Shown: positions 2,900 through 20,778 of the stretch, piece after piece
How the letters are laid out: every line of letters begins with the position of its first letter
Numbering within the stretch: the stretch's first letter is position 1
Origin: Cellulomonas sp.
Lineage (GTDB): Bacteria > Actinomycetota > Actinomycetes > Actinomycetales > Cellulomonadaceae
Assembly (NCBI GenBank): GCA_022013895.1
Contig: JAKLPK010000015.1
Location: 1-48,040, forward strand
DNA: 48,040 nucleotides
Direction: 5' to 3'
The notes under the pieces: model-generated
What the model was told of the DNA's origin: nothing
The model's input: only the letters and a program-made list of their open reading frames with translations
Databases searched by the model: none
Translations under genes and position numbers: made by a program

Positions 2900-2904
2900 T
2901 CGCC

Positions 2905-4629: not shown

Positions 4630-4673
4630 ATGCAGCATCGGGATTGGCTCACCCATTCCCGGGGTGGGTTACT
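4630..4673 (+). promoter_or_regulatory. LysR-type box and -10 upstream of the first beta-diketone hydrolase gene
   Basis: ATGC-N7-GGAT at 4630-4644 gives the T-N11-A pattern of LysR operators. The hexamer GTTACT lies at 4668-4673, 38 bases after the box start, as in four other island promoters. This is the weakest of the five: one arm is GGAT, and the hexamer lacks the TA start. It is 114 bases before ATG 4758. Confidence 0.45.
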
Positions 4674-4757: not shown

Positions 4758-5750
4758 ATGATCAGAGGCAACTACGAGTCCGACCACGACAAGCGCAAGG
4801 AGCTCCCGCACAAGGAGCTCGGAACCATCGCGCCCATGCCGTTCGAGGAGTACTCGGAACGGCTCAAGGACTTCCTCATCATGAAGCGGACCAACGGCAT
4901 CCTCGAGGCCCGCATGCACACCAACGGCGACAGCCTGCAGTGGAACGCCCAGGCGCACCAAGGCTTGCACTACTTCTTCGACTGGGCCGGCCGTGACCCC
5001 GACAACGAGGTCATCATCCTGGGCGGCTCGGGCAAGGACCTGTTCAAGGGGATCGGCCGCATGCAGGAGGACGGCACCTGGGGCTACGCGCACGAGTTCG
5101 ACTCGGCGCCCGAGCACTCGTGGCGGCTGTACGACTACCAGTACTACGACGGCACGAACGACATCGAGGGCCAGGTCTTCGACGTCGAGGTGCCGACCAT
5201 CGGCGTGTGGAACGGTGCCGCGTTCCACACCGACCTGGTGCTCTTCTCGGACATCACGCTGTGCACCGAGGACGCCTGGACCACGGAGATGCACTTCCGG
5301 GTCAACATGGTTCCCGGCGACGGCATCCAGATCGCCTGGCGCGAGCTCATGGGACGCAAGCGCTACGCGTACGCCGAGCTGACCGGCGAGATCATCACCG
5401 CCCGCAAGGCGCTCGAGCTGGGCATGGTCAACGAGATCTGTGACGACACCGAGGCCGCCTACGCGCGTGCCCACGAGATCGCCGAGCTGATCATGAGCGC
5501 CGGTACCCGGCAGACCCGTCGGCTCACCGTCCAGCAGCTGCGCAAGCCCTGGAAGGAGGAGATCGCCAACGAGCTCCGCAACGCCTTCGCCACGGAGATG
5601 TGGAACACCGCGACCGAGCACTCGCCCCACACCGTCAACTTCTGGGAGTGGGCGCACGAGGAGGCCGAGCTGGTCAAGGCGGCCGAGAAGGCGGGCAAGG
5701 TCGTCCGGCCGCGGCTCGACGGCGGTCGGGCAGAGGACGAGATCAAGTAG
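4758..5750 (+). CDS. Crotonase-superfamily beta-diketone hydrolase, 6-oxocamphor hydrolase-like (copy 1)
   Basis: 330 aa from ATG 4758, with AGGGAGAG upstream. Beyond the crotonase fold it keeps the residue set described for Rhodococcus 6-oxocamphor hydrolase (from memory: Trp40, His45, His122, His145, Asp154, Glu244): W62-x4-H67, H157 in NGAAFHTDL, H179-x8-D188 in the MHF...VPGDG segment, and E280. Such enzymes open cyclic 1,3-diketones by retro-Claisen hydrolysis without CoA. Compared with that enzyme it has about 25 extra N-terminal residues, an insertion near 100-130 and a ~45-residue charged tail. It is a single-gene unit between a LysR-box promoter and a strong terminator. The paralogue at 16699 keeps the same residues. 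Function by motif: likely; substrate: unknown. Confidence 0.78.
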   Translation: MIRGNYESDHDKRKELPHKELGTIAPMPFEEYSERLKDFLIMKRTNGILEARMHTNGDSLQWNAQAHQGLHYFFDWAGRDPDNEVIILGGSGKDLFKGIGRMQEDGTWGYAHEFDSAPEHSWRLYDYQYYDGTNDIEGQVFDVEVPTIGVWNGAAFHTDLVLFSDITLCTEDAWTTEMHFRVNMVPGDGIQIAWRELMGRKRYAYAELTGEIITARKALELGMVNEICDDTEAAYARAHEIAELIMSAGTRQTRRLTVQQLRKPWKEEIANELRNAFATEMWNTATEHSPHTVNFWEWAHEEAELVKAAEKAGKVVRPRLDGGRAEDEIK

Positions 5751-5797
5751 GTAGCACTGCTCGCGCCCTTTCGCGGGCGTGAGCCGTTCAGCATCTC

Positions 5798-5833
5798 CGA
5801 TGCCCCGGCGGGCGCTTGTCCGCCGGGGCATCG
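5798..5833 (+). terminator. Strong intrinsic terminator-like hairpin
   Basis: A perfect 14-bp stem (CGATGCCCCGGCGG at 5798-5811, pairing with 5820-5833) with an 8-base loop, followed by the T-containing GTTGTCT. It begins 48 bases after the stop of the first diketone hydrolase gene and ends 27 bases before the next LysR box. It therefore separates two transcription units. Confidence 0.8.
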
Positions 5834-5860
5834 GTTGTCTGCGAACGATTCCCAGAACTG

Positions 5861-5904
5861 ATGCGTCGTGGGCATTTCTCGACCGCTCGGCAGGCCGCCA
5901 CGCT
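5861..5904 (+). promoter_or_regulatory. LysR-type box and -10 upstream of the OFA-type MFS gene
   Basis: ATGC-N7-GCAT at 5861-5875 is a perfect 4-bp inverted repeat with T-N11-A. CACGCT at 5899-5904 sits at the same +38 offset as the other -10-like hexamers. The flanks CTG before and TTCTCGACC after the box closely match the site at 16496: 21 of 27 bases are identical from 5858. Confidence 0.6.
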
Positions 5905-5954
5905 CTGACCCGTTCGGCACCCCGGACACCGCCCGCCCCTCCCGAAGGACAGCC

Positions 5955-7160
5955 ATGCCGCAGACCATCCACCGCTGGAGGGTGCTCGCCGCCTCCGTCG
6001 TCATCGTCATGTGCACCGGCGTCGTGTACTCGTTCTCGGTCTTCGCCGGTCCGCTGCAGGAGGTGCACGGCTGGACCACGGGCGATGTCATGCTCGCCTT
6101 CGCGATCAACGGAGCGCTCGCCCCGGTGCCGATGATCCTCGGCGGTGTCGCGCTGGACCGCGGCGGGGCACGTGCGCTGATGATCGCGGGCGCCGTGCTC
6201 TTCGGCGGGGGCTTCGCGCTCACCGGAACCGCGTCCACACCCTTCCAGCTGTGCCTCTGGTACGGCGTCGTCACGGCGTTCGGGCTGGGCTTCTGCTACA
6301 CGACCGCCGTGAGCAACACCGTCAAGCTGTTCCCGGAGCGGCAGGGGCTCGCGGCGGGGCTCATCACCGCAGGCGTCGGTGCGGGGACGGTCATCGGCGC
6401 GCCGGTCGCCCGCGCGGTCATCGACGCGGCCGGGGTGTCGGCCGCGTTCGTGCGGATGGGTCTCGTGTACGGCGTCGTCGCCGTCGTCGCCGCCACGTTC
6501 GTCCGCTCCGCGCCCACGGCCGGCGAGGGGATGGCGGGTGCCGCGGGCGTCCCGTGGCACGCGATGGTGCGGTCGACCCGGTTCCCGGTGATCTTCCTGC
6601 TGCTTGCGGCCGGCCTCTTCGCACCGCTCATGGTCGTGTCCCAGCTGTCGGGGATCGGACAGAGCCCGTGGTACGGCCTCTCCGCGGCGTCGGCCGCGTT
6701 GTTCGTCGCGGGGTTCGCCGCGTGCAACGCGATCGGCGGGCCGCTCTGGGGTGCCGTCGCAGACCGGCGCGGTCCGGCCACAGCGGTCGCGCTCATGTTC
6801 CTGGTGAGCGCCGGTTCGCTCGTCGTGCTCCTGTCCGTGCACTCGTTCGCCGGTTTCGGGATCGGTGTCATCGGGATCGGCTCGTGCTTCGGCGGTGTGA
6901 TGGGAGTCTTCCCGGCGCTCACCATGACGACGTTCGGCCCGCGGTACCAGGGCACGAACTACGCGGTGATGTTCATCGCCTACTCGGTCTCGGCCTTCGC
7001 CGGACCGCGGGTGGCCGCGAGCGGTGGCGGGGCCTACACGGTGCCCTTCGTGGTGGCGATCATCGTCAGCCTCCTCGGACTGGCGTTGACGGCCCTGCTG
7101 CGGCGTCGGAACGACGTGGTCCCGGCCGCTGCGACCACCCAGGTCGCCACCAGCGGGTGA
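5955..7160 (+). CDS. MFS transporter, OFA (oxalate/formate antiporter-like) family
   Basis: 401 aa from ATG 5955, with GAAGGA at 5944-5949. About twelve hydrophobic helices. OFA-type features are the short N-terminus running directly into helix 1 (GVVYSFSVFAGPLQ), the loop NTVKLFPERQGLAAGLITAG between the first helices of the N-half, and a central charged loop (about residues 190-205). Characterised relatives exchange or import small carboxylates. In this island a cyclic or open-chain carboxylate, or export of the fermentation acid, are both reasonable (inference). It has its own LysR-box promoter and is followed by a 341-base intergenic region with no gene. Confidence 0.8.
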   Translation: MPQTIHRWRVLAASVVIVMCTGVVYSFSVFAGPLQEVHGWTTGDVMLAFAINGALAPVPMILGGVALDRGGARALMIAGAVLFGGGFALTGTASTPFQLCLWYGVVTAFGLGFCYTTAVSNTVKLFPERQGLAAGLITAGVGAGTVIGAPVARAVIDAAGVSAAFVRMGLVYGVVAVVAATFVRSAPTAGEGMAGAAGVPWHAMVRSTRFPVIFLLLAAGLFAPLMVVSQLSGIGQSPWYGLSAASAALFVAGFAACNAIGGPLWGAVADRRGPATAVALMFLVSAGSLVVLLSVHSFAGFGIGVIGIGSCFGGVMGVFPALTMTTFGPRYQGTNYAVMFIAYSVSAFAGPRVAASGGGAYTVPFVVAIIVSLLGLALTALLRRRNDVVPAAATTQVATSG

Positions 7161-7333
7161 CGGGACCCGGCCGTGCTCGTCGGTCGCCCTGGTCCTGGGG
7201 TTCCCGATCGCCGATCAGCCCGTTCGGAATGCGGATCGACGTGCGCAGTCCATGGTCGTCGAACCGGCAAGAAGCTGCGCCGTTGTGACCCCCGTGGCGC
7301 AAAGGACCAACGGCCCGAACTTGCGTCAGGCTT

Positions 7334-7377
7334 ATGCCGATCCCGAATGTCACCATCCAGCCGGACGCACCTAGTGT
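7334..7377 (+). promoter_or_regulatory. LysR-type box and -10 in the 341-base gap before the electron-transfer genes
   Basis: ATGC-N7-GAAT at 7334-7348 (T-N11-A) with TAGTGT at 7372-7377, a good actinobacterial TANNNT -10 at the shared +38 offset. The gap 7161-7501 holds no convincing gene. This is the only signal I see in it besides the ribosome binding site. The start codon at 7502 is about 120 bases downstream, giving a long leader. Confidence 0.55.
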
Positions 7378-7501
7378 CTGGGACAGCGACAACGGTGCCG
7401 ACCTTCCCCGTGAGGAACGGCAGTCGTCGGGACGTCTGGCCCGCGGGTCCGGCGTTCGACAGCTCGCACCAGTCATCGACACACGGAAGGGCGCACGAAC
7501 C

Positions 7502-9574
7502 ATGGTGGAGATCGAGGTCGACGGGCGCGCCGTGCAGGCGCTCCCCGGTCAGGACCTCCTCGCCGCATGCCTGGCCGCCGGCATCTACGTGCCGCACCTG
7601 TGCGCCCAGCCCAACCTGCCGGCCGAGGGCGGTTGCCGCATGTGCACCGTCGAGGTCGACGGCGAGGAGAGCCCGGTCCAGGCGTGCGAGGTCACCGTCG
7701 CCGAGGGCATGGTCGTGCGGACGAGGACGGCCCGGGTCGAGAAGATCCGCAACGTGGCGCTCGAGCTGATGCTGGCGCCGCACCCGAAGGACTGCACCTC
7801 CTGCGCGGCGTACCTCAACTGCGAGCTGCAGGCGCTCATGCAGTACACCGGCGTCGCGCACTCCCGGCTGCGTGAGATCGAGAAGGAGACCGCGAGGATC
7901 GGCTCCTCGGACTCGATCATCGCCAAGGAGATGTTCCGCTGCATCCAGTGCACCCGGTGCGTCCGGGCGTGCGACGACCTGCGAGGTGTCGGCATCCTGC
8001 AGCTCAACCACGCCGACGGCGAGGTCTACGTCGGCACCGCCGGGGACGTGCCGCACTCCCAGACGGACTGCCGCTTCTGCAGCGCCTGCGTCGCGGTCTG
8101 CCCGACCGGGGCGATCATGGACGTGCCCGGTCTGTTCCGCACGGACGTGCCCCGGACGCAGGCGCTGGTGCCCTGCCAGGACAGCTGCCCGGCGCACACC
8201 GACATCCCGTTGTACCTGCAGCTGGCCGGTCAGGAGCGGTACTCCGACTCGGTGGCGGTGTTCCGGGAGAAGCTCACGTTCCCGCACTCCCTGGGTTTCG
8301 TGTGCAGCCACGCGTGCGAGTCCGGCTGCAAACGCGGCAAGATCGACACACCGATCTCGATCCGGGCGGTCAAGCGGTTCGCCGTCGAGCAGGACCCCGA
8401 CCAGCGCTGGCGGGAACGGACGTCGGTCGCACCGGCGACCGGTCGCCGGGTGGCCGTCGTCGGCGCCGGTCCCGCGGGGCTCACGGGTGCCTACTACCTG
8501 GCGCGCAAGGGCCACGACGTCACCGTCTTCGAACGGTCGGCCAAGCCCGGCGGCATGCTCTCGTACGGCATCCCGCGCTACCGCCTGCCGCAGGAGGTCG
8601 TCGACGCCGAGGTCGCGACGTTGGTGGAGGACGCGCCGTTCACGATCGTCACCGGCACCGATGTGAGCCAGGTCGCGGCCCTGCGGGAGCAGTTCGACGC
8701 CGTGCTGGTCGCGACCGGCGCGCAGGCCGGACGGCGGCCCCCGGAGTTCGCGGCCGGTTGGCCGAACGCGTTCGACGGTGTCGACCTGTGCCACCGGTGG
8801 AACGACGGCACCGCGCCTGCGCTGGGTGATGTGGTGAACGTGCTCGGCGGCGGGAACGTCGCCTTCGACTGCGCGCGCAGCGTCAAGAAGCTCGGCGCGA
8901 CCACGGTCCGCGTGCTGTGCCTCGAACCGTTCTCGACGATGCTCGCCGATGCGGAGGAGGGCCGGGAGGCCCTGGCCGAGGGCATCGAGATCCTGGCCTC
9001 GGTCGCGGTCGCCCCGGTGGTCGGCGACGACGGCCGGGTGGTGGCGCTGTCCGTGTCGGACGTGGTCGCGTTCTCGTTCTCCAGCGACGGCCTGCACCTG
9101 GACCTGGTGCCCGGTTCCGAACGGGAGCTGGCCCTGGACTCCGTCATCGTGGCGACCGGTCAGCAGTCCGATCTGACGCCCGCGTGCGGCCTGGAGCTGC
9201 GGCCCGGCAACTTCGTCGTGGTGCGGGAGGCGGGCGCGACCGGGGTGGACGGGGTGTTCGCCGCGGGGGACGCGGTCAACGGCACCTCGTCGGTGGTCGG
9301 CGCCATCGCGGACGCCCGTCGGGCGACCTCGGCCGTCGACCGGTACCTGGGCGGCGACGGCGACATCGAGGACACCCTGTTCGACCGCGAGGGGCACGAC
9401 CCGGTGCTCGGGACGATCCCGGACTTCTCGGGGCTCGCCCGCACCGACTGCCGCACCGCGCAGGCCGTGACGACCGAGACGTCGCGCTGCCTGCACTGCG
9501 AGCTCCGTCGGGACATCGACACGGCGAAGTACTGGACCGACCCGGTGTTCAAGGCTCCGGTGGTGGCGCCATGA
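7502..9574 (+). CDS. Fe-S/FAD oxidoreductase: NuoG-type N-terminus fused to a GltD-like NAD(P)H domain
   Basis: 690 aa from ATG 7502, with GGAAGG upstream. Domain order: [2Fe-2S] ferredoxin (C34, C45, C48, C62); NuoG-type His-Cys site HxxxCxxCxxxxxC (H94, C98, C101, C107); two [4Fe-4S] sets (C147/150/153/157 and C190/193/196/200); a GltD-like N-terminal Cys region (C225, C229, C268, C272, C276); then an FAD/NAD(P) domain starting VAVVGAGPAG (318-326). It should move electrons between NAD(P)H and ferredoxin-like carriers in the cytoplasm. The stop overlaps the next start (ATGA), implying a complex with that protein. No molybdopterin or hydrogenase domain is attached, so it is neither a formate dehydrogenase nor a hydrogenase by itself. 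Confidence 0.82.
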   Translation: MVEIEVDGRAVQALPGQDLLAACLAAGIYVPHLCAQPNLPAEGGCRMCTVEVDGEESPVQACEVTVAEGMVVRTRTARVEKIRNVALELMLAPHPKDCTSCAAYLNCELQALMQYTGVAHSRLREIEKETARIGSSDSIIAKEMFRCIQCTRCVRACDDLRGVGILQLNHADGEVYVGTAGDVPHSQTDCRFCSACVAVCPTGAIMDVPGLFRTDVPRTQALVPCQDSCPAHTDIPLYLQLAGQERYSDSVAVFREKLTFPHSLGFVCSHACESGCKRGKIDTPISIRAVKRFAVEQDPDQRWRERTSVAPATGRRVAVVGAGPAGLTGAYYLARKGHDVTVFERSAKPGGMLSYGIPRYRLPQEVVDAEVATLVEDAPFTIVTGTDVSQVAALREQFDAVLVATGAQAGRRPPEFAAGWPNAFDGVDLCHRWNDGTAPALGDVVNVLGGGNVAFDCARSVKKLGATTVRVLCLEPFSTMLADAEEGREALAEGIEILASVAVAPVVGDDGRVVALSVSDVVAFSFSSDGLHLDLVPGSERELALDSVIVATGQQSDLTPACGLELRPGNFVVVREAGATGVDGVFAAGDAVNGTSSVVGAIADARRATSAVDRYLGGDGDIEDTLFDREGHDPVLGTIPDFSGLARTDCRTAQAVTTETSRCLHCELRRDIDTAKYWTDPVFKAPVVAP

Positions 9575-10221
9575 GGTGCGATGTGACGGCGACGCTGCGC
9601 GAGCCCGCGGACCCCGCGGCCATCGGGGCGGGCACGATCTGCCCGGTCCAGGTCGCGGCCGACCTGCTGTGGCAGGCGGCCCGGCTGTCCTGCGGACGCG
9701 AGGTCTACTGCCGTGAGGGGCCGCGCCAGGTGGCGACGATCCTCTCCGACATCGGCGTCGGGCGGGGGTCGAGCACGGATCTGGAGCTCGTCGAGGAGCT
9801 GTGCTCCCTGATGGTGGACGTCGTGCCCTGCGGTTCGGCCAAGGGCGCGGCCCGGACGACTCTCGACCTGCTGCACTCGTACCCCGAGGAGTGGGAGCGT
9901 CACGTGCTCCGCGGCCGGTGCACGAGCCTGACCTGCACGATGTCCTTCACCGTCCATGTCGACCCGGCAACCTGCACCGGGTGCCAGGCCTGCCTACCGG
10001 TCTGCCCCGTGGGTGCGATCCGCGGCGGCGAGGGGCTCATCCACGTCGTCGACGTCGAGGCCTGCACCCGGTGCGGTGCGTGCCTGGCCGCGTGCCCGGT
10101 CGACGCGCTGGCCAAGGCCGGCCCGATCAAGCCGCGGCAGCCCGCGGACCCGGTCCCGGTCGGCAGCTTCGCCGGCCCCGCGCCCGGGTCCGGGATGCGA
10201 CGCCGACGGCGCGGCGCCTGA
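9571..10221 (+). CDS. NuoF C-terminal-like domain fused to a 2[4Fe-4S] ferredoxin
   Basis: 216 aa, starting inside the previous stop (ATGA). Residues ~1-115 resemble only the C-terminal cluster-binding part of NuoF/HydB; the FMN- and NADH-binding part is absent. The usual C-G-x-C-x-x-C motif reads C41-G-R-E44-V-Y-C47-R, so one ligand position is Glu. C87 (VPCGSA) matches the fourth ligand. Residues ~125-180 are a bacterial ferredoxin with two complete sets (C135/138/141/145 and C165/168/171/175). Residues after 185 are Pro- and Arg-rich. It probably relays electrons between the preceding flavoprotein and the following FAD enzyme (inference from gene order). Confidence 0.75.
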   Translation: MRCDVTATLREPADPAAIGAGTICPVQVAADLLWQAARLSCGREVYCREGPRQVATILSDIGVGRGSSTDLELVEELCSLMVDVVPCGSAKGAARTTLDLLHSYPEEWERHVLRGRCTSLTCTMSFTVHVDPATCTGCQACLPVCPVGAIRGGEGLIHVVDVEACTRCGACLAACPVDALAKAGPIKPRQPADPVPVGSFAGPAPGSGMRRRRRGA

Positions 10222-10283
10222 CCCCCGGCCCTTGCGATGACACAGATCCCACCGACTCCACCGACGACAAAGAGGTTGTGCAG

Positions 10284-11798
10284 ATGAGCGAGAGCATGGA
10301 AGCAGACGTCGTCGTCATCGGCGGTGGCGCCTCGGGCATCACCGCGGCCGTGGCGGCAGCCGAGAAGGGCGCAAGCGTCCTGCTCGTCGAGAAGGGGAGC
10401 ACCACCGGCGGCGCCGCCAACATGGGGATGGGCTTCTTCGCCGTGGAGTCGAAGTACCAGAAGGCGCAGCTGGTCGACTTCTCCCAGGAGGATGCGTTCC
10501 GGCTGCTCATGGAGTACACGCACTGGAGGGTGGACGCGCGGTTGGTGCGCAAGTACATCGCCCAGTCGGCCGACACCGTCGAGTGGGTCGAGAAGATGGG
10601 CGTCGAGTTCCTGGGTGCGTTCAAGTACTTCCAGAACTCGACCCAGACCTGGCACGTCGTCAAGACGGCCGGTTCGAACGTCCCGGCGGAGCGGGCCGCG
10701 TCGAACCTCTACCGGGCGCTCACCGCCCAGTCCGAGGACCTCGGCGTGCAGATCATGTACCGCACGACCGCGACCAGGATCGTGGTCGAGGACGGTGCGG
10801 TCACGGGTGTCGAGCTCACCGGTGAGGACGGTGTACCCCGCGTCGTCGAGTGCAACGCCGTCATCGTGGCGACCGGCGGCTTCGGCAACAACCCCACGAT
10901 GATCCACGACTACATGGGCTACGAGTGGGGCAAGGATCTGCACTCGTTCCGCATCCCCGGGGTCGACGGCGACGGGCTGTCGATGCTGTGGGCCACCGGG
11001 GCCGGTCGCACCGAACCGGTGATGGAGCTGACGTTCACCACCCCGGGGGTGACGGATGTCTACAAGACCATCAGCGAGACGATGCGTCAGCCCAACCTCA
11101 TGGTCAACCTCGACGGGCTGCGGTTCATCGACGAGGAGATCATGAACAACACCGTCTTCACGGGGAACTCGGTGGCGCGTCAGCGCCAACGGGTCGCCTT
11201 CACGATCATCAATGACGAGATCGTCGCGGACTACCGCACGAAGGGCCTGGACTACGTCACGTTCCACCACAACATCAAGACGATGGACAAGTGGGACCGG
11301 GAGGTCGCGGCCTACGTCGGTGGCGAGGCCGTCGAGGCCTCGGGCCTGTCGGACCTGCACAACGAGGACCAGAAGCACCAGAAGAACTTCTGGGTGTGCG
11401 ACTCGCTCGAGGAGGTCGCGGCCGTGACCGGTATCGACCTGAAGAACCTCCAGGCCACGGTCACCGAGTACAACGGCTACTGCGACTCGACCGACAGCCA
11501 GTTCTTCAAGCCGTACAAGTACCTGCGGCCGCTGCGCGGCGGCAGGTACTACGTCGCGCGTCACTTCCCTGCCGGCTACGGCAGCCTCGGCGGCGTGAAC
11601 GTCAACGACCGCATGGAGGTCCTGGACACCGCGGGTCTGAAGATCCCGGGCCTGTACGCCTCGGGGACGGACGCCTGCAACATCTTCGGCGACTCGTACT
11701 GCTTCTACATGCCGGGGAACACCATGGGGTTCGCCATCAACTCGGGGCGCATGGCCGGCTACAACTCCATGGAGTACATCGACTCGGACGACTTCTAG
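10284..11798 (+). CDS. FAD-dependent oxidoreductase, fumarate reductase/ketosteroid dehydrogenase-like flavoprotein
   Basis: 504 aa from ATG 10284, with AAAGAGG 9 bases upstream. The N-terminal FAD site is VVVIGGGASG (GxGxxG at 13-18, acidic E36), followed by the T-T-G-G-A-A-N-M-G motif. The second FAD contact is the C-terminal IPGLYASGTDACNIFGDSYC region. The capping domain lies roughly at 125-360. The His and Arg that bind dicarboxylate in true fumarate reductases are absent from the HGxNRLGG-equivalent stretch (here FYMPGNTMGF), so the substrate is something else. Possibly it adds or removes hydrogen on a cyclic enone, with electrons passing through the two Fe-S proteins encoded just upstream. 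No haem motif or Tat signal is seen, so it is likely cytoplasmic. Confidence 0.78.
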   Translation: MSESMEADVVVIGGGASGITAAVAAAEKGASVLLVEKGSTTGGAANMGMGFFAVESKYQKAQLVDFSQEDAFRLLMEYTHWRVDARLVRKYIAQSADTVEWVEKMGVEFLGAFKYFQNSTQTWHVVKTAGSNVPAERAASNLYRALTAQSEDLGVQIMYRTTATRIVVEDGAVTGVELTGEDGVPRVVECNAVIVATGGFGNNPTMIHDYMGYEWGKDLHSFRIPGVDGDGLSMLWATGAGRTEPVMELTFTTPGVTDVYKTISETMRQPNLMVNLDGLRFIDEEIMNNTVFTGNSVARQRQRVAFTIINDEIVADYRTKGLDYVTFHHNIKTMDKWDREVAAYVGGEAVEASGLSDLHNEDQKHQKNFWVCDSLEEVAAVTGIDLKNLQATVTEYNGYCDSTDSQFFKPYKYLRPLRGGRYYVARHFPAGYGSLGGVNVNDRMEVLDTAGLKIPGLYASGTDACNIFGDSYCFYMPGNTMGFAINSGRMAGYNSMEYIDSDDF

Positions 11799-11939
11799 GC
11801 CGAACCTCCAGCCCCTCCGAGAATTGCGGTCCGCAGCCTTTCCGGGAACTGCTCCGGTGAGGTGGGACGCGCACACCCGAAACATCTGACCGGAGCAATT
11901 CAACAACGCTGTTCCCGACGAACAAAGAGGTTCATCACC

Positions 11940-13277
11940 ATGTCCACCACTGCCCGATCCGAGGTGACGTACCGCCCGTTCCGGTGGTTCGTCCTCGCGA
12001 CGCTCTTCATCGTCACGGCGACCTCAGCGCTGTCGCTGATCTCACCCGCTCCCCTCATCGGTGCGATCTTCACGAGCCAGTTCGCCGACCCGACAGCCAT
12101 CCCGGAGGTCCTGCCGGAAGGTGTCCTGTCACTCGGGCAGATCGCCTGGATGACCATGGGCTGGTTCAACTTCGCCGTCGCGATCGCGGCGCTGGCCGGT
12201 GGCTTCTTCGTCGACAAGCTGGGCTTCGTCAAGATCTACGTGATCGGCCTCGCGCTCATCGTCATCGGCTGGCTGCTGGTCGGTGTCATCGGCGACACCT
12301 ACACCGGGATGATGGTGATCCGCACCATCCAGGGTCTGGGGACCGGTCCCATCATGGCCTCGACGGCCGCCGTGGCTGCGACCAGGTTCCCCTCGCGCGA
12401 GCGCGGCTACGTCGCCGCCACCCAGGGCGCTGCCATGGCCGCCGGCATCGGCCTCGGGCAGGCCTTCATGCCCAAGGTCCTGTCCGCGCAGGGCGGCGAC
12501 TGGCAGGCGGCGCTCGTCGCGCTGTGGCCGGTGGCCGCGATCGCGCTCGTGATGACGATCGTCGTCGCGGTCGGGCCGAAGCAGGACGTGATCGTGGTGC
12601 AGAACGACGCGGCCGAGCAGCTGGCGGCCAAGAACGCTCTGCGCAAGGCGCTCGCCCAGCCCGTCACGTGGGCGGCGATCGGCTGCGTCGTGGTCCTGTC
12701 GTGGGTGTTCCAGGCGTTCAACGACCTGTCGCCCAGCTACCTCACGATCGCACCGCCGACCGGGGTCGGCTTCGAGAACGGGTCGACGCTGCTCGGCATC
12801 GCCCAGATCTTCAACTTCCTCGGGGCGTTCGCGGCCGGGTTCGCCACCCAGCGCTTCTTCCAGGGGCGGGTGCGGCCGGGGATCATGCTCGGCTTCGCGA
12901 TGGGTGCGATCTTCGGGCTCGCCATGCTGCTGCCGGCCGCGACGTCGAGCTCGACCCTCATGCTGGTGATCGTCTGCACGGCCGCCTTCTTCTTCGCCTG
13001 GGTCAACCCGAACGCCATCGGGTACATCGCCCAGAACTACCCGGCGAACATCACCGGCAAGCTCGGTGGCTACGCGATGGGGATCGGCATCTTCGGCGGC
13101 ACGGCGGGTGTCGCCGCAGGTTCCGCGGCGCTGCACGCGACCGGGCACTACACCCTGTCGATCATCATCATGGCTGGCGTGTGCGCCCTCGGTATCCCGG
13201 TCGCGTACTTCCTGAAGCAGCCGAAGAACGTGAGCCAGGGGGCGACGGCGGCTGAACCGGCCGCGAGCGCCCGGTAG
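11940..13277 (+). CDS. Major facilitator superfamily transporter
   Basis: 445 aa from ATG 11940, with AAAGAGG at 11924-11930. About twelve membrane helices, a central cytoplasmic loop near residues 205-225 (PKQDVIVVQNDAAEQL), and an MFS loop 2-3 motif GGFFVDKLGFVKIY. It differs from the OFA-type transporter at 5955, so the island encodes two unrelated permeases, perhaps one for substrate uptake and one for product efflux (inference). The upstream 141 bases hold a short palindrome (TGCGGTCCGCA) and distant GAATTGC/GCAATTC arms, but no clear LysR box. It may be read from the 7334 promoter. Confidence 0.8.
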   Translation: MSTTARSEVTYRPFRWFVLATLFIVTATSALSLISPAPLIGAIFTSQFADPTAIPEVLPEGVLSLGQIAWMTMGWFNFAVAIAALAGGFFVDKLGFVKIYVIGLALIVIGWLLVGVIGDTYTGMMVIRTIQGLGTGPIMASTAAVAATRFPSRERGYVAATQGAAMAAGIGLGQAFMPKVLSAQGGDWQAALVALWPVAAIALVMTIVVAVGPKQDVIVVQNDAAEQLAAKNALRKALAQPVTWAAIGCVVVLSWVFQAFNDLSPSYLTIAPPTGVGFENGSTLLGIAQIFNFLGAFAAGFATQRFFQGRVRPGIMLGFAMGAIFGLAMLLPAATSSSTLMLVIVCTAAFFFAWVNPNAIGYIAQNYPANITGKLGGYAMGIGIFGGTAGVAAGSAALHATGHYTLSIIIMAGVCALGIPVAYFLKQPKNVSQGATAAEPAASAR

Positions 13278-13285
13278 GGATCGTC

Positions 13286-13322
13286 GGCGGGGCGCGCTGC
13301 CGAGCAGGCGGTGCGCCCCGCC
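13286..13322 (+). terminator. GC-rich hairpin between MFS and htpG
   Basis: A perfect 10-bp inverted repeat (GGCGGGGCGC at 13286-13295 and its complement at 13313-13322) with a 17-base loop. It lies 8 bases after the MFS stop and ends 54 bases before the htpG start. There is no T-tract, so it may be a weak terminator, an attenuator or an mRNA-stabilising stem. Confidence 0.45.
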
Positions 13323-13376
13323 CGTCCCACCACCGGGTCTGGCCGGTGGCCGGAACACCCCGCACGAGGAGACGAC

Positions 13377-15260
13377 ATGACCACGCAGGCCGGGGTGCTC
13401 TCGATCGAGAGCGCGAACGTCTTCGCCATCCTGCGCACCTGGCTGTACGCCGAGCCGGACATCGTGTTCCGCGAGCTCGTCTCCAATGCCGCCGATGCCG
13501 TCGCCAAGCTGCGTGACCTCGCCCGACGTGGACAGGCCGCCGCGCCCGCGGGCCGGATCGACGTGGTTCTGGACGCTGCCGCGCGGACGGCGACCATCAG
13601 CGACGACGGGCTCGGCATGACGGCCGACGAGGTGGACCGCTACCTCAACCAGATCGCGTTCTCGGGGGCGAGCGACTTCATCGAGCGGTACCGGGACGCC
13701 GACGACGATGCGATCATCGGCCACTTCGGGGTCGGCTTCTACTCCGCATTCATGCTCGCCGAACGCGTCGAGGTCGACACCCGCTCGTACCTTCCCGGCG
13801 CGCAGCCGGTGCACTGGGAGTGCACCTCGGCGATGGAGTACTCCCTGGGCGCCGGTGCACGTGAACGGACCGGCACCACCGTCACCCTGCACCTGGCCGT
13901 CGACAGCCCGTACCTGGTCGGTCCCGAGGCAGCCCGTGACGCGGTCGCCCGGTACTTCGCGTTCCTGCCGGTCGCCGTGCACGTCACCTTCCGCACCGGC
14001 TCCGGCGAGGTCGCGGACGGGCACGACGCGGTGCTGATCAGCGACGACGCCCCGGTCTGGCGACGGGCAGGTGCGGGTGCCGCGGTCGAGCCCGGTGCGA
14101 TGCGTGAGTTCTACCGGACGCACTTCGACGACCCGTTCGACCCGCTGTTCTGGATCCCGGTCACCAGCCTCGACCTCGGGCTGCGCGGTGTCGTATTCCT
14201 CCGCGACACCCGCGGCGGGGCGCGTGAGATCGAGGGGCGGCTCGACGTCTACAGCCGGGGCGTCCTGGTCGGCACCGATCTGGCGGGGCTGGCCCCGAAG
14301 TTCCTGGGCCTGCACTCGATCGTGCTCGAGTGCGATGAGCTGCCGCTCGTCGTTTCGCGGTCGGGGGTGCGCACCGACGACCCGCGTGACGGGGTCCCCG
14401 CGCTGGTCGGCGAGTGCCTCACGCAGGAGGTCATCATCGCCCTGCATACGATGGCCACCCAGGACCGGCCGACCTTCGAACGGCTGTGGCCCGAGATCGG
14501 CTCCTTCGTCAAGTACGGCGTGCTCACCGACCGGACCTTCGCCTCGGTGCTGGCCAAGCGGTTGCTCTTCGCCGATCTCGACGGCCGGCTCGGCACCCTC
14601 GCCGAGCACCTCGGCACCCTCGCCGAGCACCTCGGCGACCCACCGGCCACCACGGTGCTCTACACCTCCGACCTGGCCGACCAGGCCCTGCTGGTCGACG
14701 TGTTCCGCCGCAACCACCTGCCCGCCCTCGTGCTGGACCGGGTCATCGACCAGCCGCTGCTGCGCGCCATGGAGTCCGCCCAGCCTGGTCTGACGTTCCG
14801 GCGGCTGGACGCCGACCCGGTCGCGCTGCTGGCCGCGCCGAGCTGCGACCTGTCGCCCGCGCAGTGCACCGCGCTCGCCGACGAGGTGGGCGCCGCGCTC
14901 GGCGAGCGGGTACCCGGCGCCACCGTGCAGGTGGTGGGGCTGTCGGTCCCCGACCTGCCCGTGCTGCTCACGGCGGACGAGGCCTCGCGGCGCACCGGCG
15001 ACCTGGCCCAGCTCTACGGCCTCACGCAGGGGCGTGAGATCGACGACCAGGGGCTCGTCGAGCGCACCGTCGTGGTCAACGGGAACAGCACCCTCGTCGG
15101 TCTGCTCGTCGCGTGCCAGGACCCACCGGCGCGCGAGCTGGCCATCGCGCACCTGGTCGACCTCGCGCTGCTCACCGGCGCGGCGCTCGGCCCCGAGACC
15201 GTCCCCGCCCTCCTGCTGCGCAGCCAGCGCCTGCTCGAGCACTTCCTGTCCACCCGTTGA
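13377..15260 (+). CDS. htpG: Hsp90-family molecular chaperone HtpG
   Basis: 627 aa from ATG 13377, the usual HtpG length. GHKL ATP-site motifs are in order: E33-L-V-S-N37-A-A-D40, DDGLGM near 76-81, and GHFGVGFYSAF near 114-124. The middle domain contains the catalytic-loop-like SRSGVRTDD region, and the C-terminal dimerisation domain follows. It is an ATP-dependent cytosolic chaperone. It sits inside the catabolic island between a transporter and a thiolase, in the same direction, which is not a usual htpG location. It may assist folding or maturation of the island's large Fe-S or flavin enzymes (inference). An exact 21-bp tandem duplication at 14591-14632 repeats GTLAEHL (406-412, 413-419) in frame. 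Confidence 0.88.
   Translation: MTTQAGVLSIESANVFAILRTWLYAEPDIVFRELVSNAADAVAKLRDLARRGQAAAPAGRIDVVLDAAARTATISDDGLGMTADEVDRYLNQIAFSGASDFIERYRDADDDAIIGHFGVGFYSAFMLAERVEVDTRSYLPGAQPVHWECTSAMEYSLGAGARERTGTTVTLHLAVDSPYLVGPEAARDAVARYFAFLPVAVHVTFRTGSGEVADGHDAVLISDDAPVWRRAGAGAAVEPGAMREFYRTHFDDPFDPLFWIPVTSLDLGLRGVVFLRDTRGGAREIEGRLDVYSRGVLVGTDLAGLAPKFLGLHSIVLECDELPLVVSRSGVRTDDPRDGVPALVGECLTQEVIIALHTMATQDRPTFERLWPEIGSFVKYGVLTDRTFASVLAKRLLFADLDGRLGTLAEHLGTLAEHLGDPPATTVLYTSDLADQALLVDVFRRNHLPALVLDRVIDQPLLRAMESAQPGLTFRRLDADPVALLAAPSCDLSPAQCTALADEVGAALGERVPGATVQVVGLSVPDLPVLLTADEASRRTGDLAQLYGLTQGREIDDQGLVERTVVVNGNSTLVGLLVACQDPPARELAIAHLVDLALLTGAALGPETVPALLLRSQRLLEHFLSTR
14591..14632 (+). repeat. Exact 21-bp tandem duplication inside htpG
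   Basis: Two identical 21-base units (14591-14611 and 14612-14632) encode GTLAEHL twice. The frame is kept, so the protein gains seven residues. A third partial match (CGGC) follows. Confidence 0.9.
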
Positions 15261-15309
15261 GGTCAGGCGGGCGGCCCCGTGGTCGCCGCCACCCGAGAGG
15301 AGCACCACC

Positions 15310-16461
15310 ATGTCCGACGCCGTGATCGTTGCCTATGGACGGTCCGCCATCGCGCGAGCCACCAAGGGCTCGCTCGCCCAGGTCCACCCCGTCGACTTCG
15401 GGGCGCAGACCATTGCGGGGGTGCTGGCCCGGCTGCCCCAGCTCGACCCGGCGGAGATCGACGACCTCATCGTCGGCTGCGCCATCCCCGAGGCCGGGAT
15501 GGGGCTGAACCCGGCCCGGAACATCGTGCTGCGGGCGGGTCTGCCGTTCGAGATCGCTGGTCAGACCGTCAACCGGTTCTGTGCCTCGGGCCTGCAGACC
15601 ATCGCGACAGCCGCCGCCCTCATCGAGGCCGGGATGGCGGACGTCCTCGTGGCCGGCGGAGTCGAGCACATGTCGACGCCCGTCCTGAGTGACGACCCGG
15701 CGTTCCACAACCCGTCGCTGGTCGAGCACACCGACGCCTACCTCTCGATGGGGCTGACGGCCGAGAACGTGGCCGAGCGTTACGGGGTCACCCGCCAGGA
15801 CATGGACGCGATGGCTGTCGACAGCCACGCACGGGCGTCCGCAGCCCGGGACCGCGGGGACTTCGTCGGGCAGATCGTGCCCGTGACCGGACGGGACGCC
15901 GCCGGTGCCGAGATGACCTTCGAGGTCGACGAGTGCCTGCGTCCGGGCACCTCCATGGAGGGGCTCGCCGGGCTGCGGCCGGCGTTCACGCCCGATGGTC
16001 TGGTGACCGCCGGGACGTCGTCCCCGCGCAGCGACGGTGCCGCCTTCGCGGTGCTGATGAGCGCCGAGCGGGCGGCCGCGATCGGTGCGACCCCGATCGC
16101 CCGGGTCACGGGCTTCGCGGTCGCCGGGGTCGACCCGGCGTACATGGGCATCGGGCCCGTCGCCGCTGTGCCGAAGCTGCTCGCGCACACGGGGCTCGGG
16201 CTGGACGACCTCGACGTGATCGAGCTCAACGAGGCCTTCGCGGCCCAGTCGATCGCCGTCATGCGGGAGCTCGGCCTGGACTGGGCCCGGGTCAACCGCA
16301 ACGGGGGAGCGCTCGCCATGGGGCACCCGCTGGGCGCGACCGGTGCGCTGCTCACCTGCAAGGCGCTGGCCGAGCTGGAGGCCACCGGCGGCCGTCGAGC
16401 GATGGTGACCATGTGCATCGGCGGCGGCATGGGGGCGGCCGGGGCGTTCGAGCGCCTCTGA
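15310..16461 (+). CDS. Thiolase (acetyl-CoA acyltransferase), first copy
   Basis: 383 aa from ATG 15310, with GAGAGGAG upstream. All thiolase catalytic motifs are present: nucleophile C91 in NRFCASGLQT, NEAF, H339 in GHPLGATG, and second cysteine C369 in CIGGGMG. It cleaves 3-oxoacyl-CoA with CoA, or condenses in reverse. The other thiolase in the island (22719) is clearly divergent (NRVCLSG, GHPIGQSG), so they likely act on acyl chains of different length. It lies 49 bases after htpG and is probably read with the preceding genes. It is followed by a 237-base intergenic region carrying a LysR-box promoter. Confidence 0.88.
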   Translation: MSDAVIVAYGRSAIARATKGSLAQVHPVDFGAQTIAGVLARLPQLDPAEIDDLIVGCAIPEAGMGLNPARNIVLRAGLPFEIAGQTVNRFCASGLQTIATAAALIEAGMADVLVAGGVEHMSTPVLSDDPAFHNPSLVEHTDAYLSMGLTAENVAERYGVTRQDMDAMAVDSHARASAARDRGDFVGQIVPVTGRDAAGAEMTFEVDECLRPGTSMEGLAGLRPAFTPDGLVTAGTSSPRSDGAAFAVLMSAERAAAIGATPIARVTGFAVAGVDPAYMGIGPVAAVPKLLAHTGLGLDDLDVIELNEAFAAQSIAVMRELGLDWARVNRNGGALAMGHPLGATGALLTCKALAELEATGGRRAMVTMCIGGGMGAAGAFERL

Positions 16462-16495
16462 GGCGCGGCCCGGTGCGGACCGCCGGCTGCGACTG

Positions 16496-16539
16496 ATGCA
16501 AGTTGGGCATTTCCCGATCTACCTGCGGAAATGAAGGAT
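16496..16539 (+). promoter_or_regulatory. LysR-type box and -10 upstream of the second beta-diketone hydrolase gene
   Basis: ATGC-N7-GCAT at 16496-16510 (perfect arms, T-N11-A) with AAGGAT at 16534-16539 at the common +38 offset. It lies in the 16462-16698 gap, 189 bases before ATG 16699. No other gene is seen in that gap. Confidence 0.6.
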
Positions 16540-16698
16540 CGAGAGGTCAGAGATCCAGCGCCCAGACATCCGGGCCCGAGCCAGGCATGTGCCGAGTCAA
16601 CGATGCGACGCACATGCGGGCCCACGGGCCGGAGCGTCCCGAAGGTCATCGCCGAATCATCGGGCGCCTCGTACCGGAGCCACGCAAGGAGCAGTCGG

Positions 16699-17595
16699 AT
16701 GACCAACACGAACTACGTGAAGTGGCCGGACTTCGAGCAGATCAAGGAGATGTTCAAGGAGCTCTTCATCATGGACCGTCGCGAGGACGGCGTGGTGACG
16801 GTGCGCATGCACTGCAACGGCGGCCCGCTGATCTGGTCGATGGAGCTGCACGACGCCATCGGCAAGATGTGGCGGATGCTCGGCACCGACCGCTCCACCG
16901 AGATGATCATCTTCACCGGGACGGACGACGTCTGGGTCTCCGACTTCGAGGCGGAGAGCTGGCTGCCGGAGACCACGGACCCGGCGGGCACCCGGTACGA
17001 CCACATGTTCGTCGACGGGCGACGCATGATCATCGCCCAGATCCAGGACACCGAGGTCCCCACCCTCGGCGTGCTGAGCGGTTCGGGCGGTCACACCGAG
17101 CTCGCGCTCATGTGCGACTTCGCGATCATGGCCGACGACATCACGATCCTCGACCCGCACATGCTGGTCGGGAACGTGCCCGGTGACGGCATCCACAGCT
17201 GCTTCCTCGAGCTGATGCCGTACCGCCAGGCCATCTGGTACCTCATGACCGGTGACACGATGACCGCCGCCCAGGCCCTGCAGTTCGGTCTGGTCTCCGA
17301 GATCGTCCCCCGCGAGAAGCTCATGGACCGGGCCTACGAGATCGCCGACCTGCTGATGAAGCAGAACCGCATCGTCCGTCGGCTGTCGACGCAGGTCGTG
17401 CGCCGGCAGTGGAAGCAGCGGATCGTCGACGACCTGGACATGGCCTTCGGGACCGAGATGTTCGGCTGCTTCACCGACAGCCACGAGCACTCGTTCATGC
17501 CGTCGGTCAACGAGATCACCGGCGCCCGGCCGAACTACCGGGGCAACACGAAGCTTCCCGAGGGGTTCGTCATCCCGGAGAAGAAGAAGGACTGA
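16699..17595 (+). CDS. Crotonase-superfamily beta-diketone hydrolase, 6-oxocamphor hydrolase-like (copy 2)
   Basis: 298 aa from ATG 16699, with AAGGAG 8 bases upstream. It is a divergent paralogue of the protein at 4758. It retains the same oxocamphor-hydrolase residue pattern: W46-x4-H51, H132 in SGSGGHTEL, H154-x8-D163 in PHM...VPGDG, and E253. It ends in a Lys-rich tail. The expected reaction is hydrolytic C-C cleavage of a cyclic or linear beta-diketone. Having two copies suggests two ring-opening or deacylation steps, two stereoisomers, or a mixed oligomer (inference). Its last 26 bases overlap the convergent end of the LysR gene. It has its own LysR-box promoter. Confidence 0.78.
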   Translation: MTNTNYVKWPDFEQIKEMFKELFIMDRREDGVVTVRMHCNGGPLIWSMELHDAIGKMWRMLGTDRSTEMIIFTGTDDVWVSDFEAESWLPETTDPAGTRYDHMFVDGRRMIIAQIQDTEVPTLGVLSGSGGHTELALMCDFAIMADDITILDPHMLVGNVPGDGIHSCFLELMPYRQAIWYLMTGDTMTAAQALQFGLVSEIVPREKLMDRAYEIADLLMKQNRIVRRLSTQVVRRQWKQRIVDDLDMAFGTEMFGCFTDSHEHSFMPSVNEITGARPNYRGNTKLPEGFVIPEKKKD

Positions 17596-18520
17596 CCGGT
17601 CCTCCGTTCGGCCGCGCAGGGGCGCGGTACCCCCTGCGCTGGTCCCGGATCAGCTCCACGAAGTTCTGCAGCGTCTTCTGGGCATTGTCCTTGCGGCGGA
17701 CCAGAACCATCGAGAACGACGAGTCGATATCGCCCAGGGTGCAGATCTTGAATCCTCCGACATCGGCTGAGGCGTTGAAGATCTTGGTCGGGATGAATGC
17801 GATTCCCAGGCCGAGGGACGTCTGCAGCAGCGCAGTGCTCGTGTTCGGGACGTACTCGATCCCGGCCGCCTCGGGCCCACGGTGGGTCCGTCCCGCCAGC
17901 CGGAGCTGTTTGAGGAAAGGAGGATCGACATGACGCGGGATGATGAGCGGTCGGTCGAGCAGCTCACGCGCTGTCACCACATCGCCCAGGTCGGCGCCCA
18001 GGTCGGGGCGCATGACCGCGACGAAGTTGTCCTCGCAGACCGGCGTGCGAACGAGCTTGTCGCTGTCCGGGACGGCGAAGTCGAGCGTGAAGGCGGCGTC
18101 GTAGACGCCGTGCAGGATGGAGTCCGCGAGCTCGTCGAAAGGGATGTCCTCGACCCGGGTGCTGACCTTCGGGTACTGCTCGATGAACGAGGTCATGAAT
18201 CCTTTGAAGAGCGGTCCGAACTCACGAACCGCAGCAATGCTCAGATGACCCTCATGGCCCTTCTTGGCGGCCTCCATGAGGCTCGCGACATGCGCATGGT
18301 GGCGCACCAGGAGGTCACAGTTGTCGTACAGGACCTGGCCCGCCTCGGTGAGGCAGACGTTCCTGGTGTCCCGGTCGAAGAGCTGGACGCCGAGCTCTTT
18401 CTCCAGGCTCGCGATCTGACGGCTCAGCGCCGGCTGGCCGATGTAGAAGTGCTCGGCGGCCTTGCTGAAGTTCCGGTACATCGCGACGAACTGGAAGTAC
18501 TTGAGCGACATCATGTCCAT
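17570..18520 (-). CDS. LysR-family transcriptional regulator, probable island regulator
   Basis: 316 aa if started at ATG 18520; ATG 18514 is a better fit to the upstream GGAG (10-base spacing rather than 4). The winged helix-turn-helix covers roughly residues 5-65 (SLKYFQFVAMYRNFSKAAEH, QPALSRQIASLEKELGVQLF). A LysR substrate-binding domain follows (about 90-295). Such proteins bind T-N11-A sites as tetramers and respond to a pathway intermediate. It is transcribed divergently from the butyrate kinase gene. Five T-N11-A boxes with a fixed -10 distance lie at island promoters, which makes it the likely activator. Its 3' end overlaps the second diketone hydrolase gene by 26 bases. Confidence 0.88.
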   Translation of the reverse strand: MDMMSLKYFQFVAMYRNFSKAAEHFYIGQPALSRQIASLEKELGVQLFDRDTRNVCLTEAGQVLYDNCDLLVRHHAHVASLMEAAKKGHEGHLSIAAVREFGPLFKGFMTSFIEQYPKVSTRVEDIPFDELADSILHGVYDAAFTLDFAVPDSDKLVRTPVCEDNFVAVMRPDLGADLGDVVTARELLDRPLIIPRHVDPPFLKQLRLAGRTHRGPEAAGIEYVPNTSTALLQTSLGLGIAFIPTKIFNASADVGGFKICTLGDIDSSFSMVLVRRKDNAQKTLQNFVELIRDQRRGYRAPARPNGGPVSPSSSPG

Positions 18521-19872: not shown

Positions 19873-19947
19873 CCTGCGCCGGAGGCATCCGCTGCCGGCG
19901 CACCACCTTCCGCACCACGTACCCGCACCACGAGAGAGGACAGTCCG

Positions 19948-20778
19948 ATGAGTCTCCAGAACAAGGTGATCATCTCCGCAGCGCTGACCGGAGCAGTCAC
20001 GCCCAAGTCGGCGAACCCGGCGATCCCCATGACACCCGAGGAGATCGCCGAGGACGCCTACCGCGTGTGGCAGGCCGGCGCCGCGATCGTGCACCTGCAC
20101 ATGCGGGACGACGAGGGCCGCGGCACGATGGACAAGGACCGCTTCGTGCGGACGGTGGCGCTCATCAAGGAGCGCACCGACTGCGACATCGTCATCAACT
20201 GCACCACGGCGGGGGACTCCCGCGCCGGTGACGCGGAGCGGATGGCGCACCTGCCGATCGTGCGTCCGGAGATCGCCTCGTACGACTCCGGCTCGTTCAA
20301 CTGGATGCCGGACGGGGTGTTCGTCAACAGCCCGCAGTTCCTGGACACGATGGGTCGGCTCATGCAGGAGCTGAACATCAAGCCCGAGCTGGAGATCTTC
20401 GACTCCGGGTTCATGAGTGCGGCCCAGTACTTCGTCAAGACGGGTGCCCTGGTCGCGCCGCTGCACTACCAGTTCGTGCTCGGGGTGCTCGGTGGCATGG
20501 ACGCCACGGTCGAGAACCTCGACTACCTGGCCCGCCAGCTCCCGGCGGGGTCGACCTGGTCGGCGTTCGGCATCGGCCGCCACCACCTGCCGATCATGTT
20601 CGCCACGCTGGCCCTCGGCGGGCACATCCGGGTCGGGCTGGAGGACAACGTCTTCTACTCCAAGGGTGTGCTCGCCACGAACACGTCCCTGGTCGAACGT
20701 GCCGCGCGGGTCATCCGTGAGTTCGGCAAGGAGCCGGCGACGCCCGACGAGGCTCGTCAGATCCTCAGCCTGAGCTGA
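19948..20778 (+). CDS. Beta-keto acid cleavage enzyme (BKACE, DUF849 family)
   Basis: 276 aa from ATG 19948, with GAGAGGA upstream. The TIM-barrel Zn site is H49-L-H51, with third ligand E232. The family's catalytic Arg and Asp match R228 and D233 in HIRVGLEDN (by analogy to Kce of lysine fermentation, from memory). These enzymes run: beta-keto acid + acetyl-CoA -> acetoacetate + acyl-CoA. The stop overlaps the next start (TGATG), so it is translationally coupled to the phosphotriesterase-like hydrolase. Next to thiolase and CoA-transferase genes it implies a beta-keto acid (for example 3,5-dioxo) intermediate. The 19873-19947 gap has no obvious promoter. Confidence 0.88.
   Translation: MSLQNKVIISAALTGAVTPKSANPAIPMTPEEIAEDAYRVWQAGAAIVHLHMRDDEGRGTMDKDRFVRTVALIKERTDCDIVINCTTAGDSRAGDAERMAHLPIVRPEIASYDSGSFNWMPDGVFVNSPQFLDTMGRLMQELNIKPELEIFDSGFMSAAQYFVKTGALVAPLHYQFVLGVLGGMDATVENLDYLARQLPAGSTWSAFGIGRHHLPIMFATLALGGHIRVGLEDNVFYSKGVLATNTSLVERAARVIREFGKEPATPDEARQILSLS

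Follow-up and report, generated by a model that had tools for sequence, protein, structure and literature searches.

The 48,040-nucleotide stretch of Cellulomonas sp. DNA analysed here (the window) carries two divergent genes, och1 and och2, whose products resemble 6-oxocamphor hydrolase (OCH). Both lie in one catabolic cluster that spans positions 4758-28380, with och1 at its start and a short-chain dehydrogenase/reductase (SDR) gene at its end. OCH1 (330 aa) is encoded at 4758..5750 and OCH2 (298 aa) at 16699..17595, both on the forward strand, as are all features below unless stated otherwise. A sequence-only reading of this DNA had proposed that both proteins keep the full OCH active site and that they may act on successive intermediates or form a mixed oligomer. 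The window genome (3.76 Mb on 304 contigs, the window being contig 41) is 89.8% complete with 5.6% contamination; it and several of the relatives are incomplete, and "absent" is to be read as "not found" throughout.

Active-Site Residues and Fold of OCH1 and OCH2

The residues named in the sequence-only reading are present as claimed: W62, H67, H157, H179, D188, and E280 in OCH1, and W46, H51, H132, H154, D163, and E253 in OCH2. Counted along the sequence alignment, OCH W40, H45, H122, H145, and D154 align with OCH1 W62, H67, H157, H179, and D188. From where the alignments stop (288 on 252 for OCH1 and 261 on 252 for OCH2), E280 and E253 fall on OCH residue 244, provided that no gap lies between, and the model confidence around E253 is low (block mean pLDDT 52). 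For the Anabaena hydrolase ABDH, PMC3584854 gives H43, H144, D153, and E243 as the catalytic residues. Counterparts of all four were found in OCH1 and OCH2 (the Glu via the aligned ranges), as were those of OCH Trp40 and His122. ABDH itself has Phe at the Trp40 place of the sequence alignment, where OCH1 and OCH2 have Trp, so the Trp does not define the family.

The closest solved structures by sequence were 1o8u (OCH, 1.4e-29), 2j5g (ABDH, 9.2e-29), and 1szo for OCH1, and 2j5g (1.7e-32) and 1o8u (1.6e-29) for OCH2. The OCH of 1o8u and 1szo comes from Rhodococcus. The AlphaFold model of OCH1 has a pLDDT of 90.0; that of OCH2 reaches 78.3, with 40 C-terminal residues below 50. When the models were compared with solved structures, OCH and ABDH ranked first for both. 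The OCH1 model matched 1o8u with a Z of 34.0 and a root-mean-square deviation of 1.4 over 245 aligned residues (Z 32.3 for 2j5s), and the OCH2 model matched 1szo with a Z of 33.5 and a deviation of 1.7 over 249 residues (Z 32.6 for 2j5s). Sequence identity to OCH in the structural alignments was 24-31%, and that between OCH1 and OCH2 is 33%. The best chain beyond OCH and ABDH, 3rrv, perhaps a protein without proven function, reached a Z of 29.3 with OCH1 and 28.9 with OCH2, so that the lead over it is more than 4 units for OCH and about 3 for ABDH. Both paralogues are therefore like OCH in their crotonase fold (Z 33-34) and in their set of Trp, His, Asp, and Glu, and like ABDH (2j5g, 2j5s) in fold (Z 32-33) and in the His/His/Asp/Glu set, while OCH1 differs from OCH by an extra N-terminus, an insertion, and a tail.

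At the place of the catalytic Glu164 of enoyl-CoA hydratase, reached through the ABDH alignment, both proteins have His (His179 in OCH1 and His154 in OCH2) instead of Glu; the Glu144 place, aligned by eye, holds Asp159 in OCH1 and Glu134 in OCH2. The structure 3q1t, from the same list of fold matches, was deposited as an enoyl-CoA hydratase, but PMC3584854 proposes it as a beta-diketone hydrolase. Because the best sequence and fold matches, the residue set, and the His at the Glu164 place all agree, the prediction that OCH1 and OCH2 are C-C hydrolases of the OCH/ABDH type is well supported at the family level, as the sequence-only reading had it.

Conservation and Distribution of the Two Paralogues

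Scanning a collection of genome contigs with short patterns gave at least 76 OCH loci, of which 33 carry OCH1 at 73-91% identity. The patterns missed at least one OCH2 (that of Actinotalea), so these locus counts are lower bounds; L009 and L011 are two loci of one genome (Acerihabitans), and L056 and L082 are apparently near-identical metagenome-assembled genomes (MAGs). OCH1 was found in Actinobacteria (Actinotalea, Demequina), Enterobacterales (Brenneria, Acerihabitans, Sodalis, Klebsiella indica), Tolumonas, Alphaproteobacteria (Telmatospirillum, Rhodoplanes, and others), Pasteurellaceae (Lonepinella, Necropsobacter, Mesocricetibacter, Haemophilus), Spirochaetes, delta-proteobacterial MAGs, and one Chloroflexi MAG. 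One spirochaete MAG (L030) has two OCH1 copies close together (at 6.3 kb and 10.0 kb), with 73% and 75% identity to OCH1 of the window. Within its own genus och1 is rare: a search of 58 genomes at E 1e-15, including its own and 35 congeners, gave two others with a relative (37% and 39% identity), and no other cluster genes were found in the 20 kb around these. A phage search gave no match, and a plasmid search gave 30 records, all below 60% identity, the 20 listed being at 32-37%.

We surveyed the six residue places in all OCH matches of loci L008-L083 and L088 (79 rows, including both L030 copies and the fragments in L040 and L082). W-H-H-H-D-E was found in every row spanning all six places, 33 of 33 for OCH1 and 5 of 5 for OCH2; one further OCH1 fragment and one OCH2 fragment lack the first two places. 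The other relatives have H-H-H-H-D-Q in 37 of 39 rows, the remaining two being cut short. Three more distant relatives (L085-L087) have Leu and Gln at the Trp and Glu places, and ABDH has Phe and Glu. The Trp/Glu pair is thus a conserved feature beyond chance, found in the OCH1 and OCH2 rows spanning it and in no other readable relative. The 39 rows, which belong to L041-L083 (Streptomyces, Microbacterium, Martelella, and others), represent a third OCH-like group with 32-40% identity to och1; this group keeps the His/His/His/Asp core, but His replaces the Trp and Gln the Glu. No match to the window cluster genes was found in the two neighbourhoods of this group that were read.

The N-terminal extension and the charged tail noticed earlier in copy 1 are real and proved in the alignment to be family-wide features of OCH1. 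All 31 rows examined have IK as the last two residues of the tail, 28 of them as part of EDEIK or EEEIK; one OCH1 alignment (A2) took 21 of the 33 OCH1 loci. In the tree, OCH1 (10 rows) is apart from OCH2 together with L022, a delta-proteobacterial MAG (5 rows), with support of 100/100 and 99/99. The actinobacterial OCH1 rows join Tolumonas (98/89), a grouping that fits lateral transfer; long branches make the deep forks and the placement of OCH and ABDH uncertain.

OCH1 and OCH2 at the Head of the Same Operon

A beta-keto acid cleavage enzyme (BKACE) gene with at least 56% identity to that of the window lies near OCH1 in 27 of the 33 loci, a thiolase gene also in 27, a CoA-transferase A gene in 25, and an SDR gene (at least 49% identity) in 14. 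OCH2, at 80-85% identity, heads the operon lysR-buk-BKACE-ptb-thl2-ctfAB in Dactylosporangium (L048), two Propionibacteriaceae MAGs (L056 and L082), and Cellulomonas timonensis (L061), three of these four operons including a phosphotriesterase-family gene. The same operon-head position is occupied by OCH1 in Actinotalea (L008) and Demequina (L039). Genome searches at E 1e-25 found one OCH homologue each in L048, L056, L061, and L082 (three of them being MAGs that may be incomplete), and no OCH2 in Demequina or in five further OCH1 genomes (L016, L017, L031, L034, and L038). Since this operon begins with OCH1 in some genomes and with OCH2 in others, the two look like alternative entry enzymes for one step rather than enzymes of obligatory successive steps. 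With OCH2-only core operons in four Actinobacteria and OCH1 alone in six genomes checked, the earlier suggestion of successive intermediates is weakened.

Where both paralogues are kept, a division of labour is possible. In Actinotalea they are on different contigs, OCH2 being found there in a lone OCH2-lysR pair (L088 9417-11369, sp. M2MS4P-6). In L022 the two genes are adjacent, and the fourth gene past OCH2 is an acetoacetate-CoA ligase, scoring above its cut-off, which makes acetoacetate a plausible product. Between the OCH pair and this ligase, L022 also encodes a molybdopterin enzyme and a small Fe-S protein (11386-14070); the best match of the former was acetylene hydratase, with no transhydroxylase among the 60 chains listed.

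A Candidate Fermentative Pathway

With confidence a little above even, we favour a reading in which OCH1 and OCH2 are CoA-independent hydrolases of a cyclic 1,3-diketone and serve as alternatives at the entry of one fermentative pathway, the ring being probably derived from phloroglucinol. ABDH, for comparison, is reportedly CoA-independent, to go by the title of a paper that PMC3584854 cites. Judging from the gene content, the ring most likely comes from phloroglucinol or dihydrophloroglucinol, and BKACE would receive 3,5-dioxohexanoate (triacetate). This ring is proposed because 3,5-dioxohexanoate fits BKACE and because the published fermentation of phloroglucinol shares the second half of the pathway.

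The first step would be the attack of a water molecule, activated by the His/Asp of OCH, on a ring carbonyl, upon which a retro-Claisen step would break the ring C-C bond and release an open-chain oxo acid. BKACE (19948..20778, identified by family scan, as are the proteins that follow unless another basis is given) would then convert a beta-keto acid and acetyl-CoA to an acyl-CoA and acetoacetate; its frequent presence near OCH1 suggests that a beta-keto acid is formed by OCH itself or arises soon after its step. The 3-oxoacid CoA-transferase subunits A (23934..24614) and B (24611..25294), CtfAB, would turn acetoacetate into acetoacetyl-CoA, and thiolase 1 (15310..16461) and thiolase 2 (22719..23924, of the acetyl-CoA acetyltransferase type) would yield acetyl-CoA. 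Ptb and Buk would allow the formation of ATP; butyrate kinase (18748..19872) scored above its NCBIfam cut-off and the phosphate butyryltransferase-like protein (21767..22717) below the NCBIfam cut-offs. At a guess, the phosphotriesterase-family protein (20790..21770), a possible lactonase, could return the 3,5-dioxohexanoate lactone to its open form. L008, L039, L048, L056, and L082 likewise have a phosphotriesterase-family gene (56-80% identity) between BKACE and ptb; L061 does not. OCH1 and OCH2 would share one slot, perhaps with different rings, and one type of LysR box.

Residue 17 of BKACE is Val both in the window protein and in all 29 aligned relatives. From a sequence of the lysine-pathway enzyme KCE, we take this Val to stand at the place of KCE Glu14, and it speaks against an amino tail on the BKACE substrate. 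In the Clostridium triacetate lyase this position is Trp16, according to PMC10470551. The same paper describes phloroglucinol fermentation as using a BKACE-type lyase, CtfAB, a thiolase, and a phosphotransacylase/kinase, and CoA-transferase, thiolase, phosphotransacylase-like, and kinase genes are all present in the cluster. As far as this source goes, the pathway of Clostridium scatologenes (PGR, DPGC, TfD, TAL) is like the window cluster in that genes for a BKACE-family lyase, a CoA-transferase, a thiolase, acyl-phosphate enzymes, an SDR, a transporter, and a regulator are clustered, and in that the lyase lacks the KCE Glu14 (Val here and Trp in TAL). The ring is opened there by a Mn-dependent enzyme of a cyclase family, whereas a crotonase-fold hydrolase is the candidate here. 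A 2024 study of a curcumin beta-diketone hydrolase is cited in PMC12981152.

Several observations weigh against phloroglucinol and against a single slot. Both paralogues are kept in the window genome, in Actinotalea (L008), and in L022. BKACE has the Val where the Clostridium lyase has Trp, and it scored below the NCBIfam cut-offs of all four listed functions, including the one for 3,5-dioxohexanoate; no BKACE was found in the stretches examined of L022, L032, L033, and L036. Unlike the Clostridium pathway, the cluster shows no gene of the 3-hydroxyacyl-CoA dehydrogenase family of TfD among the 19 proteins of its family scan (the open reading frame at 2900-4473, before och1, lies outside the scanned set). 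The SDR (27616..28380) has Arg-Arg after the second strand and not the TR(S/N) motif of phloroglucinol reductases such as PGR. At E 1e-70 the SDR was not found in 8 of 20 OCH1 genomes, in any of three OCH2-only genomes (two of them MAGs), or in L022. The FAD protein, resembling vinylphenol and fumarate reductases (10284..11798; E 1e-100), was found in 4 of 24 genomes (L008, L048, L023, and L031), and the OYE/BaiCD-like flavin ene-reductase (25488..27590) also in 4 of 24 (L008, L039, L048, and L022). PF04199, which we take to be the Pfam family of the DPGC cyclase, occurs in 11 of 24 OCH-bearing genomes and, at a similar rate, in 8 of 14 controls; it had no match in the window genome. L010 was left out of the genome counts for SDR, PF04199, OYE, and FAD.

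The patchy occurrence of the SDR, OYE, and FAD proteins suggests that the steps before ring opening vary or sit elsewhere in these genomes. A fixed pairing of SDR with OCH1 and of OYE with OCH2 was rejected, since OYE occurs in the OCH1-only Demequina and was not found in the OCH2-only L056 and L061.

Alternative Explanations

The same chemistry might serve another ring, either a resorcinol-type cyclohexane-1,3-dione or a camphor-like terpenoid diketone, which we hold to be unlikely though worth serious consideration. The titles of the solved structures have OCH and ABDH acting on other cyclic diketones, and the OYE and FAD ene-reductases of the cluster could produce such diones. However, 1,3-cyclohexanedione would give 5-oxohexanoate, which is no beta-keto acid, so that the link to BKACE (27/33) would be left unexplained. 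The cluster also looks fermentative, and neither cytochrome P450 nor any other oxygenase family, including the camphor type, turned up among the 19 scanned proteins.

It is rather doubtful that the two are successive hydrolases, with OCH1 opening the ring and OCH2, alongside BKACE or in its place, acting on the resulting linear beta-diketone, for instance by splitting 3,5-dioxohexanoate into acetoacetate and acetate. Such a division would fit the co-occurrence of both in the window, Actinotalea, and L022, the last having the two genes adjacent and no BKACE within the 18.9 kb examined. The four actinobacterial core operons headed by OCH2 include BKACE, however, with no OCH1 found in those genomes, and the six OCH1 genomes checked were without OCH2.

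A bolder form of the phloroglucinol reading is that OCH1 and OCH2 open phloroglucinol itself, via its triketo form, to 3,5-dioxohexanoate, a hydrolytic dearomatisation of an arene that would need neither oxygen nor a reductase. Such a route would account for the dispensable SDR and for BKACE as the very next step; we consider it improbable. In a variant for genomes with the SDR, one SDR of the NADP type would give the ring a hydride ahead of its opening and recover it afterwards.

That the two are ordinary enoyl-CoA hydratases or isomerases of beta-oxidation is most improbable, and this identity was rejected on residues, fold, and family scores. Pfam ECH_1 scored above its cut-off in both, and many NCBIfam enoyl-CoA hydratase models matched; but the listed NCBIfam matches are far below their cut-offs (no better than 73 and 87 bits where 354 are required), both sequence and fold place OCH and ABDH first, and the Glu164 place holds His. 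For comparison, one L031 gene scored 277 bits as a short-chain enoyl-CoA hydratase, below the cut-off of 394 bits. Crotonases are trimers or hexamers, and a mixed oligomer of OCH1 and OCH2 would suit their shared genome and box type, but it deserves hardly any credence with each found without the other elsewhere, 33% identity between them, and conserved N- and C-terminal extensions specific to OCH1.

A Candidate LysR Box Upstream of och1 and och2

A LysR-family regulator gene lies on the reverse strand (17570..18520), its end overlapping och2; it was identified by family scan and by relatives beside och1 in L008 and L039 and beside och2 in L048, L056, L061, L082, and L088. The sequence-only reading had given each och gene its own LysR-box promoter. 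The same candidate box, ATGC-N7-GCAT (of the T-N11-A type), does lie upstream of och1 (4630..4644, one mismatch) and of och2 (16496..16510, perfect). However, the cluster has a single lysR gene, and in the window as a whole the box occurs no more often than expected by chance (11 matches at up to one mismatch against 12.2 expected). Further matches lie upstream of mfs1 (5861..5875, perfect), of the NuoG/GltD-like gene (7334..7348, one mismatch, containing the alternative start codon of that gene), of BKACE (19874..19888, one mismatch), and of the OYE gene (25363..25377, one mismatch).

What stands out is where the box lies: within the cluster, 6 of 8 matches fall in the 8.2% of sequence taken as intergenic (binomial 7e-6), but these figures are descriptive, since the box was picked by eye from those same upstream regions and the intergenic count depends on the chosen starts. 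Among all 256 palindromes of the same shape, ten others reach at least 6 intergenic matches, though among 26-124 matches each. All nine actinobacterial OCH genes examined have the box (up to one mismatch) no more than 300 bases upstream; these regions are homologous and thus not independent. The box is perfect upstream of the L088 OCH2-lysR pair. A stricter search for LysR palindromes gave nothing upstream of och1, och2, or lysR/buk.

Other Features of the Cluster and of Related Loci

The gene order from och1 is MFS, NuoG/GltD-like fusion, NuoF/ferredoxin-like, FAD protein, MFS, HSP90-like, thiolase 1, and och2, followed by lysR (reverse), buk, BKACE, phosphotriesterase-family gene, ptb, thiolase 2, ctfA, ctfB, OYE, and SDR. 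By family scan, mfs1 (5955..7160) encodes an MFS transporter resembling oxalate/formate and lactate transporters, and a second MFS transporter is encoded at 11940..13277. The fusion of a NuoG N-terminus with a GltD-like part (7502..9574) may supply electrons, and the NuoF C-terminal/ferredoxin-like protein (9571..10221) follows it. Gene starts are chosen start codons, with earlier in-frame starts at 4563 (och1), 5868 (mfs1), and 7334 (nuoG/gltD).

An HSP90/HtpG-like ATPase gene lies within the catabolic cluster (13377-15260; 327 bits against the HtpG-model cut-off of 371), and in Cellulomonas timonensis a relative with 46% identity (L061 18922-20739) adjoins the OCH2 cluster. Four spirochaete OCH1 loci (L023, L028, L030, and L031) have in common an HpaB-like protein of 525 aa, which scored 108 bits against a cut-off of 480 bits (L023 11231-12808 and L031 18976-20553); in L023, genes that by eye resemble those for acyl-CoA dehydrogenase and Etf come after it. 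Finally, L010 encodes a conserved protein without an NCBIfam match (15911-16909), outer-membrane-like by eye (SPLQPG...PPPG near the N-terminus), and proteins of this type occur in ten more Gram-negative OCH1 loci.

Implications

The fold and the chemistry are known, while the cluster and its role were not found described in open-licence literature; for an OCH-type enzyme in a phloroglucinol-like pathway, we found no description in the open-licence PMC literature. If the proposed role is true, a crotonase-fold enzyme would be a second solution to the opening of phenolic 1,3-diketone rings without O2, spread over very distant bacteria. Family models sort the och genes with enoyl-CoA hydratases; a search built on the known cyclase would then pass them over, and estimates of how far anoxic polyphenol breakdown extends would be too low. 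The operon slot shared by the two paralogues would also provide a clean system for studying how substrate choice evolves in this small family.

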